Part shown: positions 9,287 to 62,299 of the stretch, in pieces
Position numbering within the stretch: the stretch's first letter is position 1
Layout: each line of letters begins with the position of its first letter
Assembly (NCBI RefSeq): GCF_000425045.1
Contig: NZ_AULA01000002.1
Location: forward strand, 62,001-126,000
DNA from: Acidaminococcus intestini DSM 21505
GTDB lineage: Bacteria > Bacillota > Negativicutes > Acidaminococcales > Acidaminococcaceae
DNA length: 64,000 nt
Direction of reading: 5' to 3'
Program-made: the position numbers and the translations under genes
Notes under the pieces: model-generated
Databases searched by the model: none
Told to the model about the DNA's origin: nothing
The model's input: the letters and a program-made list of their open reading frames with translations, nothing else

Positions 9287-10894
9287 TTACACATTTTTCA
9301 TGATGTCGTCGACGTATTTCTTGATCTTCATGAGGCGTCCCTTGATATCCGGGACAAGAGCCACATTGTGGACCACTTTCTGCATGATCCGCCCCTTGTA
9401 GACCAAGTAGGTCTTTTCGAGGCTGTGCATCAGGTCGCTCAATTCCTGGACAGCCGGTTCCATCTGGACAACCTCCGTCGGGATGATATGCCACTGCGTC
9501 CCATCGATGACAGCCGTATCGCCATAATTGGGGATATAGGCAGCTGTTCCCAATTCCGTCCGAAGCAATTCAGCAAAGGTGGCTGCAGAATCGTATTCAC
9601 CATGGACCACAAAGAATGCGTTGGGGCGCCGGATCATGCCCTTATAAAGGTCCATCATCTGATGTTTATCCGCATGGGCCGAAAAGCCGGTCATATTATA
9701 GATTTTGGCTCCGACGACGATTTCTTCGCCCATAATCTTGACTTTCTTGGCACCATCCACGAGCTGCCGTCCCAAACTGCCTTCTGCCTGATAGCCGGCA
9801 AATATGACGGAACTATCCTTACGCCACAGGTTGTGTTTCAAATGATGGAGCACACGGCCCGCGTCAGCCATGCCGCTGGCAGAAATGATGATCATTGGGC
9901 TTGGCATGTCATTGATGGCCCGCGATTCTTCCGGTGTTTCAGTATAATGGACGTTGGGCATGTCGATGAGGCGTCCCCCCTGTTTTTGATAGATGGACCG
10001 TGCCTCTTCATCATACTCATCCGGATTGAAGAGCATGACCTTGGTTGCTTTAATGGCCATAGGGCTATCAACCATAATGGGAACAGTTGGAAGCTTACCG
10101 CTTGACATGAGTTTCTGGAAATAGTAGAGCATGACCTGTGTACGGCCAACGGCAAAGGCCGGAATGATGATGTTGCCGCCGCGGGAAAGGGCATCCTTGA
10201 TGATTTCGAGAAGTTCTGCCTCGCGGTCTGCCGTTTCATGGACCCGGTTGCCATAAGTGGATTCCGTGATGATGAAATCCGCTCCGGAAAGCTGATGGGG
10301 ATCATCAAGGATAGGCACGTTTGGCTGGCCAATATCGCCCGTATAGATGAGCTTTGTTTCCTTGCCGTTTTCGCGTACAATGACATTTACGAGGGCACTT
10401 CCTAGGATATGACCGGCAACACGGAAGCGAATGGTCACCCCGTCACAAATTTCAAAATTTTCATCATAATCGTGGCAGACAAACTGTTTTAATGCCAGAT
10501 ACGCGTCGTCCACGGTATAAAGGGGCGTCACGGCTTCTTTGCCTTTACGCAGTCCTTTACGGGTCTCGATCTCCGCATCCTGTTCCTGGATATGGCCGCA
10601 GTCCGGCAAGAGGATCTCGCACAGCTCCTTTGTTACATGGGTACAGTAAATGGGGCCTTTAAAGCCTTCCTTGACGAGACGGGGCAAAAGCCCGCTGTGG
10701 TCGACATGGGCATGGCTGAGTACAACCGCGTCGATTTCACCAGGGTGAAAGGCAAATGGTTTGCGATTGAGGCTGCGGATCAGTTTGGGCCCTTGGAACA
10801 TGCCACAGTCAAGCAGGATTTTCTTGCTGCCCACTTCAAGCATGTGGCAGGAACCTGTTACGACCTTATCGGCACCGAGGAACCGGATCTTCAT
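9287..10894 (-). CDS. Metallo-beta-lactamase/beta-CASP family hydrolase with RNA-metabolism domain
   Basis: A 535-residue protein of the CPSF/YSH1-like group of beta-CASP hydrolases, whose members are usually Zn-dependent RNases. The lactamase core carries VLSHAHVDHSG near residue 65 (the HxHxDH metal motif); the beta-CASP part contains FAVGRTQVMLYY and PIMVDSPMA, followed by IIISASGM and a late GFSAHAD and HGE, and the RMMBL domain ends around residue 460. The roughly 60-residue tail is basic and may be helical. I start at ATG 10894, with AAGGAAGG eight bases upstream, rather than at the GTG three codons earlier. It is not the canonical RNase J form; the actual substrate is not known. Confidence 0.88.
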   Translation of the reverse strand: MKIRFLGADKVVTGSCHMLEVGSKKILLDCGMFQGPKLIRSLNRKPFAFHPGEIDAVVLSHAHVDHSGLLPRLVKEGFKGPIYCTHVTKELCEILLPDCGHIQEQDAEIETRKGLRKGKEAVTPLYTVDDAYLALKQFVCHDYDENFEICDGVTIRFRVAGHILGSALVNVIVRENGKETKLIYTGDIGQPNVPILDDPHQLSGADFIITESTYGNRVHETADREAELLEIIKDALSRGGNIIIPAFAVGRTQVMLYYFQKLMSSGKLPTVPIMVDSPMAIKATKVMLFNPDEYDEEARSIYQKQGGRLIDMPNVHYTETPEESRAINDMPSPMIIISASGMADAGRVLHHLKHNLWRKDSSVIFAGYQAEGSLGRQLVDGAKKVKIMGEEIVVGAKIYNMTGFSAHADKHQMMDLYKGMIRRPNAFFVVHGEYDSAATFAELLRTELGTAAYIPNYGDTAVIDGTQWHIIPTEVVQMEPAVQELSDLMHSLEKTYLVYKGRIMQKVVHNVALVPDIKGRLMKIKKYVDDIMKNV

Positions 10895-10995
10895 GATAGT
10901 CACCTTCCTTAGCGGAAATATTTTCTGATTATTGCCTATATTATACCATGTATATGTGACAAAAAGAGGAAAAAATTTCCCCCTTTTTTACCCAA

Positions 10996-11046: not shown

Positions 11047-14000
11047 TCAAAAAAGTTCAATCTGATCCGTCTCAGGCAGGCCTTCAAGGACTCCCAGGTC
11101 GGCCAGGACTTCTACAGCGGTATTGCTGATCTTGGCCCGGTTCCGCAAGTCTTCCCTTGAAATGAAGGGGCCTTTGCTGCGGGCTTTTACAATATTTTCA
11201 GCGGCGACACCGCCAATTCCGCCAATGGCACCCAAGGGCGGCAAAAGACCTTTATCGGTTACAATGAATTGATGAGCATCAGAACGGTACAGGTCCACGT
11301 CTTCAAATTCAAATCCCCGGGCGAGCATTTCCACGGCCAGTTCCATATAGGTGGCCGTTTCCTTGTCGTTGACAGAAGCCTTTGTTCCCTGCTGTCCTAC
11401 ATTCTTGATGAAGGAACGCATGAAATTGATGCCTTTATGGACTTCCACAAAGTCAAACTTCGGGGCCCGGATCGTAAAATAGGCCGAATAAAATTCCTTT
11501 GGATGATGGACCTTACAGTAGGCAATGCGGTAAGCCGACAGGACATACGCTACGGCATGGGCTTTAGGGAAAAGATACTGCAGCGTTTTGCAGCTCTTGA
11601 TATAGAATTCAGGAATATTGGCTTTCTTGAAAGCTTCTTCCTGCTCGGCCTTGAAGCCCTGTTTATGGGCTTTTCCTTTACGGGCCCATTCCATGATGCC
11701 AAAAGCCATGCTGGGCTCCATGCCTTTATTGATGAGCCAGTTCATGATATCGTCACGAGTTGAGATGGTATCTTCTGTTGGCGTCCCGTTCTTGATCAGG
11801 TCCTGAGCATTGTTGAGCCATACGTCGGTTCCGTGGGAGTACCCGGAAATACGCAGGAGGTCGGAAAAATTCTTTGGCTTAACGTCAGAAATCATCTGCC
11901 GTACAAAGCGGGTCCCACATTCCGGGACACCGTAGGTCGCAACGTCGGTCATGATGTCTTCAGGGGACACACCAATGGATTTGGTACTAAGGAAAAGCTC
12001 CATCGTATCAGGGTCGCCTACAGGAATATTCTTGCAGTAGCCCTCCCCCAGCATGTTATCAAGCATACGGATCATGGTCGGATCATCGTGGCCGAGGATA
12101 TCAAGCTTAACGATACGGTCATTGATGGAATAATAATCATAATGGGTCGTGATGGTGCCGCAGGTCGGATCGTCAGCTGGGTAGGAAACAGGCGTCAGAT
12201 AATGGACGTCAAGATCGCGCGGCACAACCATGATCCCGGCCGGATGCTGACCGGTGGTCCTTTTGACACCGACAAGCTTTGGGATGAGGCCTTCGATAAA
12301 AGCCGTCCGTTTGGGTTCGTTGCGGTTTTCATAGTACTTCTTAATGTAGCCATAAGCCGTCTTATCGGCAATGGTTCCCAGCGTGCCGGCGCGGAAGACA
12401 TTATCCCGACCAAAGAGGTCTTCTGTGTATTTATGGGCCCGCGGCTGGTATTCACCGGAGAAGTTCAGATCGATATCAGGAACTTTATCCCCGTGGAATC
12501 CCAGAAAGACGGCAAACGGGATATTGTGGCCATCCTTGACCATCATGGTCCCGCATTCCGGGCAAGCCTTGTCAGCAAGGTCAAAACCGGAGCCGACACT
12601 GCCATCGGTAAACCACTCCGTATGGTAGCAATGAGGACAGCGATAATGCGGCGGAAGGGGATTCACTTCCGTAATGTTCAGCATGGTTGCAACAAAAGAA
12701 GAACCTACACTGCCTCTGGACCCTACCATGTACCCGTCGTCATTGGATTTTTTGACGAGCAGGTGGGCAATGTAATACAAGACGGAAAAGCCATTGCCAA
12801 TAATGGATGACAGTTCGAGTTTAAGGCGGTCCTCCACGATTTTAGGCAGTTTTGGTCCATACCATTCATGGGCCCTGCCATAACTCATGGATTCCACTTT
12901 TTCCTTCGCCCCGGGAATCATCGGGGAATAGAGCTGATCTCGGTCTGGGACAGGTTTGAACTTTTCAATCATGTCGTTGATCTTATTGGTATTTTCGACA
13001 ACGACCTCATAGGCCCGTTCCTTCCCCAAATAGGAAAATTCTTCAAGCATCTCTTCCGTTGTCCGCAGGTACAAGGGCGGCTGCTCCTCATCAGGATAGC
13101 CCATACCGGCCTGCAGGATGCGGCGGGCAATGGCATCCTCAGGATTGAGGAAGTGGACGTCGCAAGTGGCTACGACGAGTTTTCCCAATTCATCCCCCAA
13201 GGCGAGAATCTTTTTATTGATGGTCTGCAGGTCTTCCCAAGTATTGATTTCCGGATAACGGTCATCGCGGAGCAGGTACTGGTTATTCCCGCAGGGCTGG
13301 ATTTCAAGGTAATCATAAAAATCGGCAATTTGAAGGAGCTCTTCGTGGCTTGCTCCCGAAAGGATTGCGCGGTAAACTTCACCGGCTGCACAGGCTGAAC
13401 CAATGATGATGTCGTCGCGGTACTGCTCAATGAGTCCCTTGGTCATACGGGGCCGCTTTGGCTTTCCCCCAAAATACTGCAAGTGGGAAAGGGACACAAG
13501 GCGGTATAGGTTCCGCAGGCCAGCAAAGCTTTTTGCCAGCAGGATGATGTGGTAATTTTTCTTATCTTCCTTACTGTGGCAAAGGTATCCTTCTACCCCA
13601 AAAATCAGCTTGAAGTCCTTGAACTTCACTGCCTCATCATAGGCAAAAGGATAAGCCTGGACCACACCATGGTCCGTAATGGCAAGGGCCTTGTGACCCC
13701 ATTTTGCCGCCGTATCGACAAGTTCTTCAATAGGCGTCAGGCCATCCATCTTGCTCATTTTGGTATGGCAGTGAAGCTCAATCCGCTTGACTTCCGACTT
13801 GTCTTCCCGTGCTTTTTTGGGCAGGAGCATGATGCCCTTGACGATGGTCATGACCAGTTCGCTGTTTTCATAGCGGTCCACTTCCACATTGCCCTGGATA
13901 AGGACATGGGATCCCTTGGGAATCTTTTTCTGGAGAGCTTCTGCCTCCTTCTTGTTCTTGACCAAATCATTTTCTTCCTTAAAGGACCCAAAACGGATCT

Positions 14001-14679
14001 TGGCCAAGAGTCCATTCGTCTCATCGCGCAGCAAAATAGAAAGGATAACAGCATTGGTCCGCAGTTCCCGTTCTTCAAAGCCAACAACGTCACCTTCAAC
14101 GACAACGCCGTTTTCCTCTTCGACAATTTCATCCATGGTCCGCGGTTTTTTCGTTATCTTACGGCCATAGACGACATCCTTGCCGCCGCTTTTTTGATTG
14201 CCCTGCTGCTGCAGGGCGCGCAGGGCATTTTGATAGGCCTTGCTTTGAAAGGTCATTTCCGCGGCCGCATCCATGGGTTCTTCATTCTCGTCCAGCAGTT
14301 CCGGCGGTTCTTCCGGAAGAGGAATGATTTCCATTTCCGGCATTTCGGGCAAAGAAAAAGCAACGTCCACGGAATCCCTCGGTTTATCTTCCTCACAGGG
14401 AGGATAGACATCCCTCGCCTTTTCATTGATGAAGGAGACCTCCTCAACGCAGCAGGCAGCGGCAATTTTCTTTGCCACTGCCATGAGGTTCTGTTCTTCC
14501 AGAGGATTGGTTTCTACGCCATAGGAGATCTTCCACGTATTGGTCCGCTCATTGATTTCAACATAGTCAAGCGGGATTTTCCTGATACAGGCATTCTGTT
14601 CCGGAGACAGTTCCAACGTTTGCAGGAAGGAAAGGAAGTTATGTCTGTCCGGAATGATCCGATAACTCTCAGAATGCAT
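11047..14679 (-). CDS. polC: DNA polymerase III alpha subunit, PolC type, lacking the internal exonuclease domain
   Basis: PolC is the main replicative polymerase of low-G+C Gram-positive lineages. The 1210 residues show the N-terminal domain, an OB-fold (about 180-290), the PHP domain (ELHCHTKMSKMDGL near 301; ITDHGVV near 334), the PolC zinc knuckle (CPHC...CPEC), the catalytic PDIDLNF, the HPAGIMVVP and VKLDILGHDDPT blocks, helix-hairpin-helix motifs and a terminal QIELF that fits a beta-clamp-binding site. Typical PolC is about 1440 residues because a DEDD 3'-5' exonuclease interrupts the PHP domain. Here FGVEGYL (about 360) passes almost directly into NYHIILLAKS (about 375) and no DVETTGL-like exonuclease motif exists. 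The frame is intact, so this is not a simple frameshift. Confidence 0.96.
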   Translation of the reverse strand: MHSESYRIIPDRHNFLSFLQTLELSPEQNACIRKIPLDYVEINERTNTWKISYGVETNPLEEQNLMAVAKKIAAACCVEEVSFINEKARDVYPPCEEDKPRDSVDVAFSLPEMPEMEIIPLPEEPPELLDENEEPMDAAAEMTFQSKAYQNALRALQQQGNQKSGGKDVVYGRKITKKPRTMDEIVEEENGVVVEGDVVGFEERELRTNAVILSILLRDETNGLLAKIRFGSFKEENDLVKNKKEAEALQKKIPKGSHVLIQGNVEVDRYENSELVMTIVKGIMLLPKKAREDKSEVKRIELHCHTKMSKMDGLTPIEELVDTAAKWGHKALAITDHGVVQAYPFAYDEAVKFKDFKLIFGVEGYLCHSKEDKKNYHIILLAKSFAGLRNLYRLVSLSHLQYFGGKPKRPRMTKGLIEQYRDDIIIGSACAAGEVYRAILSGASHEELLQIADFYDYLEIQPCGNNQYLLRDDRYPEINTWEDLQTINKKILALGDELGKLVVATCDVHFLNPEDAIARRILQAGMGYPDEEQPPLYLRTTEEMLEEFSYLGKERAYEVVVENTNKINDMIEKFKPVPDRDQLYSPMIPGAKEKVESMSYGRAHEWYGPKLPKIVEDRLKLELSSIIGNGFSVLYYIAHLLVKKSNDDGYMVGSRGSVGSSFVATMLNITEVNPLPPHYRCPHCYHTEWFTDGSVGSGFDLADKACPECGTMMVKDGHNIPFAVFLGFHGDKVPDIDLNFSGEYQPRAHKYTEDLFGRDNVFRAGTLGTIADKTAYGYIKKYYENRNEPKRTAFIEGLIPKLVGVKRTTGQHPAGIMVVPRDLDVHYLTPVSYPADDPTCGTITTHYDYYSINDRIVKLDILGHDDPTMIRMLDNMLGEGYCKNIPVGDPDTMELFLSTKSIGVSPEDIMTDVATYGVPECGTRFVRQMISDVKPKNFSDLLRISGYSHGTDVWLNNAQDLIKNGTPTEDTISTRDDIMNWLINKGMEPSMAFGIMEWARKGKAHKQGFKAEQEEAFKKANIPEFYIKSCKTLQYLFPKAHAVAYVLSAYRIAYCKVHHPKEFYSAYFTIRAPKFDFVEVHKGINFMRSFIKNVGQQGTKASVNDKETATYMELAVEMLARGFEFEDVDLYRSDAHQFIVTDKGLLPPLGAIGGIGGVAAENIVKARSKGPFISREDLRNRAKISNTAVEVLADLGVLEGLPETDQIELF

Positions 14680-14687
14680 GATGCCTC

Positions 14688-15374
14688 CTATTCTTCCATA
14701 TTCGACAGATTCTTTATTTTTTTGACGGCTCTCAGTTGGAGGAGTCCATCAAGGATTTCATTGGCATTTTCATATTTGCTGATCTTGGCATTGACAACGA
14801 TCCGTAAGGTTTGTTCTTCCGGCCGGCTTGCCATATCAAGGACGCGGGTCTTCACGTTATGACGGGAAAAGTAGTCCATGACATCCATCATACTGTCCGG
14901 ATTGCTCTCACAGACGATGGCGAGCTTTACTTTCACATTGCGTCCCGAAGGAAGGACTTTTTTTTCGATTCCCCGAATGGCCATCAAGGTAATGAGGGAC
15001 ACGATGGTAGCCACGACCCCCAGACCAAGCATACCGCAGCCAACGGTAAGCCCAATGGCAGAAACCATCCAGACGCTGGCCGCGGTTGTAAGCCCCTTGA
15101 CCGTAAGTCCCTCATGCAGGATGGTACCGGCGCCTAAGAAGCCGACACCGGTCACAACCTGGGAAGCAATCCGGGACGGGTCGCGGTTCAGAGGATGACC
15201 GTCAATGCCATAAATGGAAACAATCATCAAAAGGGCTGACCCCGTTGCCACCAGCACATGGGTCCTAAGGCCTGCCGGACGGTCTCCGGCGCTGCGCTCC
15301 AGACCAATGATCCCGCCGAGAAAAGCGGTTAGGAGAAGCCGGAGCACAAGATGCATGAACTGAGTGTCAAACAT
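14688..15374 (-). CDS. MgtC/SapB family membrane protein
   Basis: A 228-residue inner-membrane protein of the MgtC family, linked in other bacteria to growth at low Mg2+ and survival in macrophages, although many relatives have no known role. The N-terminal 140 residues contain four to five hydrophobic helices and the family blocks IIGLERSAGDRPAGLRTHVL, DPSRIASQVVTGVGFLGAG and LTTAASVW. The C-terminal part (KVKLAIVCESNPDSMMDV and following) looks like an ACT-like soluble domain. It sits eight bases before polC, between proS and polC, which is not part of the usual Firmicute order. Confidence 0.9.
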   Translation of the reverse strand: MFDTQFMHLVLRLLLTAFLGGIIGLERSAGDRPAGLRTHVLVATGSALLMIVSIYGIDGHPLNRDPSRIASQVVTGVGFLGAGTILHEGLTVKGLTTAASVWMVSAIGLTVGCGMLGLGVVATIVSLITLMAIRGIEKKVLPSGRNVKVKLAIVCESNPDSMMDVMDYFSRHNVKTRVLDMASRPEEQTLRIVVNAKISKYENANEILDGLLQLRAVKKIKNLSNMEE

Positions 15375-60292: not shown

Positions 60293-62041
60293 TTATTTGA
60301 CGTTGATTTTCCCGGCATAGACCGTACCGGACTCCACGTCAAGGGTCACCACATCGCCATCTTCCAGTTCCTTCATGGCTCCAGCGGCCCCAACAATCAC
60401 AGGGATTCCGAAATTGATGCCCACAATGGCCGCCGGCGAGGTAAAGCCCCCTTCTTCAGCAATGATGCCCGCTGATTGGGCCGCTTTGGCACCCATTTCG
60501 TTTTCAAGGGCGGAACAGACAAGAATGGAACCCTCTTTTATTTTATCGATATCACTGAGATGCTCCACGCGGGCCACTTCGCCCGTAACGGATTTACGGC
60601 CAATGCCCTGCCCTTTGACGACAATTTCACCGACATTGACAACCTGAATAAGGTTCGTACTTCCTACTTTCCCCACGTTCTTACCCGCCGTGACAATGAC
60701 CGAATCCCCTTTCCGGACAAGACCTGCATTTCTGGCTTCGTTGACGGCAAGGTCAATAAGGGCATCCGTATTGGGTTTATTGAGGCCTTTAAGGGGAACG
60801 ACGCCCCAATAAAGCGCCATGCGGCGCAGACTCTCTTCTTTCGGGGAAACACCGACTACCATGGCGTGGGGACGATATTTGGCAACCATGCGGGCCGTGT
60901 ATCCAGATTCCGTAATGGACAGGATCACGTTGGCATCAAGTTCCTGAGCAATCTGCACCGTGGCATGGGAAATAGCGTCCGTCATCTGGACCTGTGCCCC
61001 AATGCCTTTATGTTTAAAGACATTCACATAGTCAAGGGAAGCTTCAGTCCGTTTGGCAATCCGGCTCATGGTTTCCACGGCTTCGACAGGATAGGCACCG
61101 GAAGCGGTTTCACCGCTCAGCATGATGGCATCGGTCCCGTCATAGATGGCATTTGCCACATCACTTGCCTCAGCACGCGTGGCATGGTAATTTGTGATCA
61201 TGCTCTCAAGCATTTGGGTTGCCGTGACGGCAGGTTTGCCAGCTGCATTGCATTTTGCGATGATCTGCTTTTGGACAACAGGAACATCTTCCATAGGAAT
61301 CTCGACACCCAAATCACCACGGGCGACCATGACACCGTCGACAACTTTCAGGATTTCATCGATGTTATCGACGCCTTCCTGGTTTTCAATCTTGGCAATG
61401 ATGCCCATATTGGAGCCGAGGCTCTCCAGAAGGCGCCGGATCTGCATGGCATCATCGGCGCTGCGTACAAAGGAGGCTGCAATATAATCCATTCCCGCAT
61501 TTGCCGCAAAGGTAATATCGGACACGTCTGCTTCCGACATAAAGGGCAGCTTCAAGATAGCCCCTGGCACAGCGACACGCTTACGGGAAGAAATCTCCCC
61601 GCCGTTGGTGACCGTTGTATGGATTTCAGTATCCGTCGTTGATTCTACCCGAAGGGTCAGTTTCCCATCATTCAGAAGGATCGTATCACCTTTTTTCACC
61701 TCTTGGGGAAGACCGCTGTAGTTTACATGGGCTTTTTCCGCTGTGCCCTCGCAAGCTTCTGCAGTCAGTGTAAAGGCGTCCCCGTCCTTCAGTGTCACCT
61801 TGTCCCCCTTAAACAGGCCCAGGCGCATTTCCGGTCCCTTTGTATCGCCGATAAAACCGATGACACGGCCTGTTTCGGCAATGGCTTCCTTCAAAAGGGC
61901 CAATCGTTTGGCACATTCCTCATGGGATCCATGGGAAAAGTTGAAACGAGCCAAATCCATGCCGCTTTCAATCATCTTGACAAGGATCTCTTTTCTGTCC
62001 GTTGCCGGACCCAAAGTACAAATAATCTTCGTTTTTTTCAT
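60293..62041 (-). CDS. pyk: Pyruvate kinase with C-terminal PEP-utilising-type domain
   Basis: Pyk makes pyruvate and ATP from PEP and ADP. I start at ATG 62041 (MKKTKIICTLGPATDRKEI, ribosome site AGGAGTTCTTACC), giving 582 residues; the open frame extends 85 codons upstream, but that part lies over another small gene. Seen are FNFSHGSHEE, the K+/Mg2+ catalytic VARGDLGVEIP and KPAVTATQMLESM, the Pyk C-domain, and a final 90-residue PEP-mobile domain like that of Bacillus Pyk. Its usual TSHAAIV reads TSPAAIV, so the histidine is missing. Confidence 0.96.
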   Translation of the reverse strand: MKKTKIICTLGPATDRKEILVKMIESGMDLARFNFSHGSHEECAKRLALLKEAIAETGRVIGFIGDTKGPEMRLGLFKGDKVTLKDGDAFTLTAEACEGTAEKAHVNYSGLPQEVKKGDTILLNDGKLTLRVESTTDTEIHTTVTNGGEISSRKRVAVPGAILKLPFMSEADVSDITFAANAGMDYIAASFVRSADDAMQIRRLLESLGSNMGIIAKIENQEGVDNIDEILKVVDGVMVARGDLGVEIPMEDVPVVQKQIIAKCNAAGKPAVTATQMLESMITNYHATRAEASDVANAIYDGTDAIMLSGETASGAYPVEAVETMSRIAKRTEASLDYVNVFKHKGIGAQVQMTDAISHATVQIAQELDANVILSITESGYTARMVAKYRPHAMVVGVSPKEESLRRMALYWGVVPLKGLNKPNTDALIDLAVNEARNAGLVRKGDSVIVTAGKNVGKVGSTNLIQVVNVGEIVVKGQGIGRKSVTGEVARVEHLSDIDKIKEGSILVCSALENEMGAKAAQSAGIIAEEGGFTSPAAIVGINFGIPVIVGAAGAMKELEDGDVVTLDVESGTVYAGKINVK

Positions 62042-62054
62042 GGTAAGAACTCCT

Positions 62055-62264
62055 TTATCTTGACCTTTCTTCCCACCGGGGAGAGTCTTTGGTGTTGTAT
62101 TCATCCATCCCTGTAAAAAAGCCGTCATCCCAGGAAATAGATCGTATAGCCCACAAGCCGCGGTGCGCATGGATTGCCCTCGCAAGGAAGGGGAACTTTC
62201 CATCCAGAACAGGATCGGTACGGAACCAATCCAGGTAAAGAATGAGGACCTTCTCCTTAGCCAT
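62055..62264 (-). CDS. Small ORF of unknown function upstream of pyk
   Basis: A 69-codon frame, MAKEKVLILYLDWFRTDPVL at its start and WDDGFFTGMDEYNTK near its end, rich in Trp and Asp. I do not recognise it. In its favour: it is about 29 bases after a predicted promoter and 13 bases before pyk. Against: there is no good ribosome site before ATG 62264. It could be a leader gene or a chance frame. Confidence 0.4.
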   Translation of the reverse strand: MAKEKVLILYLDWFRTDPVLDGKFPFLARAIHAHRGLWAIRSISWDDGFFTGMDEYNTKDSPRWEERSR

Positions 62265-62299
62265 CCAGCAAGTGACATTTCCTGAAACCGGCTCATTTC

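Follow-up and report, generated by a model that had tools for sequence, protein, structure and literature searches.

In G. kaustophilus PolC, the DnaQ-like exonuclease domain (Exo) is inserted into a loop of the PHP domain (PMC5636811). The published G. kaustophilus structure 3f2b is that of an engineered ΔExo construct, and the S. aureus enzyme, with its Exo likewise removed by engineering, polymerises rapidly (PMC3656037), indicating that an Exo-free architecture is viable. PolCs that naturally lack the domain were reported in 2013 by Timinskas et al. in Clostridia and Negativicutes, where the survey's figures put them at 6% of PolCs and at 16% within the systems that combine PolC with DnaE1; in its account of these systems, no experimentally characterised example was known (PMC3919608). 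A different kind of proofreading is exemplified by M. tuberculosis DnaE1, in which the D226N substitution abolishes exonuclease activity (PMC5636811).

The window analysed here, a stretch of 64,000 nucleotides from Acidaminococcus intestini, encodes a 1210-aa protein that scored above the cut-offs of both NCBIfam equivalog models for PolC (TIGR01405, 1275.6 bits versus 1043; NF001688, 1383.7 bits versus 873) and thus belongs to the PolC type. Pfam detected a single uninterrupted PHP domain (residues 301-455) together with Pol3, finger and HHH domains; the HHH_6 match (residues 1123-1202) is followed by the C-terminal clamp motif QIELF, and the zinc-region cysteines are also retained. The features of the locus are as follows.

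11047-14679, reverse strand: polC, PolC-type DNA polymerase III alpha subunit without Exo (Pfam, NCBIfam, phmmer)
13549-13593, reverse strand: E363 to H377, the 13-residue loop replacing Exo, which has about 213 aa in other PolCs (alignment)
13591-13593, reverse strand: PHP ligand E363
13549-13551, reverse strand: PHP ligand H377
12880-13812, reverse strand: PHP region, residues 290-600, a complete PHP fold in the AlphaFold model
13744-13773, reverse strand: PHP ligands H303, H305 and D312, invariant in alignment A1 and in all sampled PolCs
13669-13671, reverse strand: PHP ligand H337 (alignment)
13390-13392, reverse strand: PHP ligand C430 (alignment)
13153-13161, reverse strand: PHP ligands D507 and H509 (alignment)
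11050-11064, reverse strand: QIELF, C-terminal clamp-binding motif (compare the consensus QL[S/D]LF given in PMC3919608)

Pfam returned no RNase_T/DEDDh match for this protein, and no exonuclease profile matched it. The segments FGVEGYL, CHSKEDKKN and YHIILLAKS are contiguous from residue 360, so that 13 residues separate the PHP metal ligands E363 and H377, whereas the same loop holds 206-220 residues, mostly 213, in exo-bearing PolCs. Consistent with this, phmmer aligned residues 179-1210 to 3f2b with no Exo-sized gap. The original prediction, which located the missing Exo near residues 360-377, was therefore correct in both coordinates and description. Because the DEDDh Exo is absent from its PHP domain, we filed the protein as an exo-less variant rather than a canonical PolC; since this kind was described in 2013, it adds a member to a known variant. 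Relocation of Exo elsewhere in the protein was rejected, as the Pfam and NCBIfam searches matched no such domain. A frameshift or a segment lost in assembly was likewise ruled out: the PolCs of all eight other species of the genus and all readable genes of the class share the gap, which is thus neither a chance event nor an assembly accident.

No second, exo-bearing PolC was found in the genome, which also encodes LpxC; the presence of LpxC alongside PolC suggests a Firmicute of the diderm kind, for example a Negativicute. A single DnaE1 with an intact PHP domain is encoded about 1 kb past the window (G000:C2:127114-130167), so that exo-less PolC and DnaE1 occur together as in the systems of the 2013 survey. 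The polC gene lies near proS, within an ispG/rseP/dxr cluster, and a gene of the MgtC/SapB family (14688-15374) separates the two. Adjoining polC is a β-CASP nuclease gene (9287-10903) whose best NCBIfam match, type VII Cas14, reached 431 bits against a cut-off of 800; it is probably an ordinary β-CASP RNase. Elsewhere in the window (60293-62296), a pyruvate kinase carries a PEP-utiliser domain at its C-terminus.

To place the gap in a wider context, we analyzed PolC across the class and the phylum. PolC was matched in all 61 class genomes searched (41 genera), with full-length ORFs of about 1160-1290 aa and some others that are contig-end fragments, and Exo was absent from each of the 48 sequences extracted (34 genera). 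From the phylum, 200 genomes were drawn evenly across species; 147 had a PolC match and 53 had none at the cut-off used. Among the 137 phylum genes read, 54 have a live Exo and 83 lack a working one. By family, 40 contained only exo-less PolCs, 30 only exo-bearing PolCs, and two were mixed; in one family (f75) both kinds were found (L193 and L098) and lie apart in the tree. Exo-less PolC is thus the norm in the class and the commoner state among the phylum genes read and, having been on record since 2013 (PMC3919608), is not the rarity that the original prediction implied. Its frequency under our species-even sampling is much higher than in the 2013 survey, the two values not being directly comparable because the sampling differs. 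What is new here is the breadth of the distribution, the dead intermediates, the genomes without a detectable DEDDh exonuclease and a candidate helper in one genus.

When the Exo columns were left out of the PolC alignment, the resulting trees required the Exo state to change at least 8-9 times, and 5-6 of the changes are forced by well supported branches; as these are quick trees without a fixed root, the counts are firmer than the direction of change. A single clade of exo-less PolCs was rejected (p-AU 5.7e-6; 4e-4 without recent losses). The direction can be read in genus g134 of family f45, related genera of which carry a live Exo. Two species (L197 and L220, the latter being the same organism as L239, JAAYIC010000112.1) retain an in-frame Exo remnant of about 198 aa that has no DEDDh motif at all but whose homology to live Exo can still be recognised (BLASTP 7e-17); in a third (L195), a linker of 39 residues occupies the site. 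Within the genus, dN/dS was 0.38 for the remnant versus 0.10 for the PHP and polymerase region; live Exo gave about 0.1 and, in live-Exo pairs, only about 1.6 times the value of the core. These ratios indicate that the remnant evolves under relaxed constraint, and the sequences of g134 clearly point to loss, with the domain dead in two species and deleted in a sister species. At the Exo site of another PolC (L160, from genome G127) lies a low-complexity insert of 84 residues, which may be a final vestige of a lost Exo. We infer that the class-wide absence in the Negativicutes likewise reflects loss and not primitive absence.

The nine PHP ligands, HHDHEHCDH, were conserved throughout the exo-less (128/128) and dead-Exo (3/3) PolCs, 131/131 in all, the dead-Exo rows counting L220 and L239 separately. 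In the exo-bearing PolCs this pattern was found in 126 of 139, and in the remaining 13 the eighth ligand is N, the sole PHP ligand substitution seen among the sampled PolCs. The named members of these 13 are Bacilli, and the cases appear to represent one Bacilli-like lineage and not independent events, so that the contrast is suggestive and amounts to no test by independent events. Nor is PHP conservation specific to Exo loss, since the ligands are intact as a rule in exo-bearing Clostridia too. The window PolC has all nine, in the arrangement HHDHEH[C/H]DH of the M. tuberculosis DnaE1 type, and as aligned its D507 would be the counterpart of D226 in that enzyme. AlphaFold modelled its PHP region with a pLDDT of 92.1 and a pTM of 0.89, and the best PDB match of the model was PolC itself (3f2c/3f2b, TMq 0.84). 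The PHP domain of DnaE1 was intact in 14/14 readable exo-less genomes. Three exo-less genomes also encode an accessory DnaE (L373, L374, L375) with a D to N change at the eighth PHP ligand; DnaE1 and PolC of the same genomes both keep the Asp.

We consider the best explanation, to which as a whole we assign a probability of roughly 0.6, to be that the window encodes a bona fide replicative PolC, from a lineage without a DEDDh Exo in PolC, and that proofreading is carried out by the PHP zinc sites of PolC and DnaE1, with a genus-specific helper acting in trans. Exo, lying in the PHP loop between two metal ligands, has been lost repeatedly, and the PHP fold closes up in its absence. The PHP zinc site of PolC itself would then most likely remove wrongly inserted nucleotides in the manner of M. 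tuberculosis DnaE1, and that of the partner DnaE1 most likely does likewise. In the genus of the window, ε-like proofreading in trans probably comes in addition from a small DEDDh protein, encoded as a separate exonuclease and bearing a terminal peptide that resembles a clamp-binding motif. The suggestion in the original prediction that an intact PHP domain might substitute for Exo thus gains support from the nine retained ligands; against it, the role of PHP could be structural or that of a pyrophosphatase.

It has been suggested for PolC plus DnaE1 systems, in the discussion of them in PMC3919608, that PolC is an auxiliary polymerase while DnaE1 replicates the genome, which would make a PolC proofreader unneeded. 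The intact PHP domain of DnaE1 in the exo-less genomes examined fits this idea, as do the 53 of 200 phylum genomes without a PolC match at the cut-off used. However, PHP ligands are kept in PolC, the window protein also keeps its clamp motif and zinc-region cysteines, the PHP and polymerase region is strongly constrained in the one genus measured (the dN/dS of 0.10 in g134), and none of the 61 class genomes searched was without a PolC match. We therefore regard an auxiliary PolC as somewhat unlikely.

Another candidate is a separate DnaQ-like exonuclease, as raised in the original prediction; in a fuller form of this idea, it would act on PolC (and DnaE1) in trans via the clamp, leaving PHP with a structural role only. 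A search of the window's genome for such proteins did return three stand-alone DEDDh exonucleases. One of them (L001; G000:C19:8254-8928; PF00929, 129 bits) has the DEDDh domain expected of a DnaQ/ε protein, and its type was found in all nine species of the genus (L001, L041-L043, L045 and L047-L050), each with a clamp-like terminal peptide. In 4/9 this is an N-terminal MEPYSxSLF, the window's own protein having SLSLF, and in 5/9 a C-terminal QLSLW behind a variable tail. Neither peptide fits the clamp-binding consensus fully: the Q is missing from SxSLF, and in QLSLW a W takes the place of F. Only about one in 40 other stand-alone exonucleases, scanned via HMM, had a comparable terminal motif (one QSMLF). 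The L001 type was also the sole PF00929 match in six of the seven genus members censused. Judging by the conserved motifs, these proteins may bind the clamp, which would make the L001 type a possible ε-like helper; being related to one another, the nine sequences are not nine independent observations. We do not claim that it is the excised PolC Exo, as a DEDDh tree unites the stand-alone proteins and places them near no particular PolC Exo. A role as a class-wide substitute was rejected because strong matches were limited to the genus and a few others.

Beyond the genus, transfer of proofreading to a stand-alone exonuclease fares poorly. Among the 83 phylum genomes whose PolC is exo-less or has a dead Exo, 27 gave no PF00929 match (19 of the 27 being at least 95% complete and five single-contig), including the g134 genomes G196 and G161, and nor did nine of the 121 genomes of the class census; it is possible that a diverged exonuclease falls below detection in such genomes. 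Moreover, stand-alone DEDDh proteins were not enriched in the exo-less genomes of the phylum sample (1.25 vs 1.06, P = 0.34), and compensation by extra exonucleases across the phylum was rejected since copy numbers do not differ. Because 27 exo-less genomes are without a detectable DEDDh exonuclease, reliance on a separate DnaQ fails as a general explanation, so that this part of the original prediction may hold for the window's genus but not in general, and we consider it unlikely as a replacement for PHP proofreading. That PolC lacks replicative proofreading altogether, with mismatch repair bearing the burden and fidelity lowered, is very improbable: MutS-family domains were present in 15/15 exo-less genomes checked, but the PHP active-site ligands were never lost in the 131 exo-less and dead-Exo PolCs, by contrast with the accessory DnaE of three of the same genomes.

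The question of PHP proofreading matters beyond this locus, as many anaerobic Firmicutes of the gut and the environment use PolC plus DnaE1 as their replisome. A tentative extension, which we hold to be somewhat less than an even bet, is that much of the phylum can do without the DEDDh proofreader of PolC and has discarded it many times, leaving DEDDh-free lineages with two PHP-proofreading polymerases, and that one genus rebuilt proofreading in trans with a clamp-tethered exonuclease. Natural exo-less PolCs, dead-Exo intermediates and genomes in which no DEDDh exonuclease was detected make PHP proofreading in PolC testable.

With canonical PolC (B. subtilis, S. aureus and the G. kaustophilus enzyme of 3F2B), the window protein shares the OB, PHP and polymerase domains, the zinc region, HhH and the C-terminal clamp motif. 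In native canonical enzymes the PHP loop holds a DEDDh Exo that is missing from the window PolC, whose gap is that of the engineered 3F2B construct. M. tuberculosis DnaE1 (PMC5636811) resembles it in the nine-ligand PHP site with a conserved catalytic Asp, but is a polymerase of the DnaE form with a measured exonuclease, whereas the window protein is of the PolC form and its activity is predicted. E. coli DnaQ (ε) offers a parallel to the small stand-alone DEDDh protein of the genus and its putative clamp-binding peptide, from which it differs in the position of the terminal peptide and in family placement; binding of the genus exonuclease to α is putative. Closest are the exo-less PolCs of Timinskas et al. 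(PMC3919608), which have the same domain order minus the Exo insertion and the same DnaE1 partner. They formed 6% of the PolCs in that survey, against 83 of 137 in our species-even sample of the phylum and every PolC read from the class, and its description of them mentions neither dead remnants nor genomes lacking a DEDDh exonuclease; here dead remnants are present, as are genomes in which no such exonuclease was detected.
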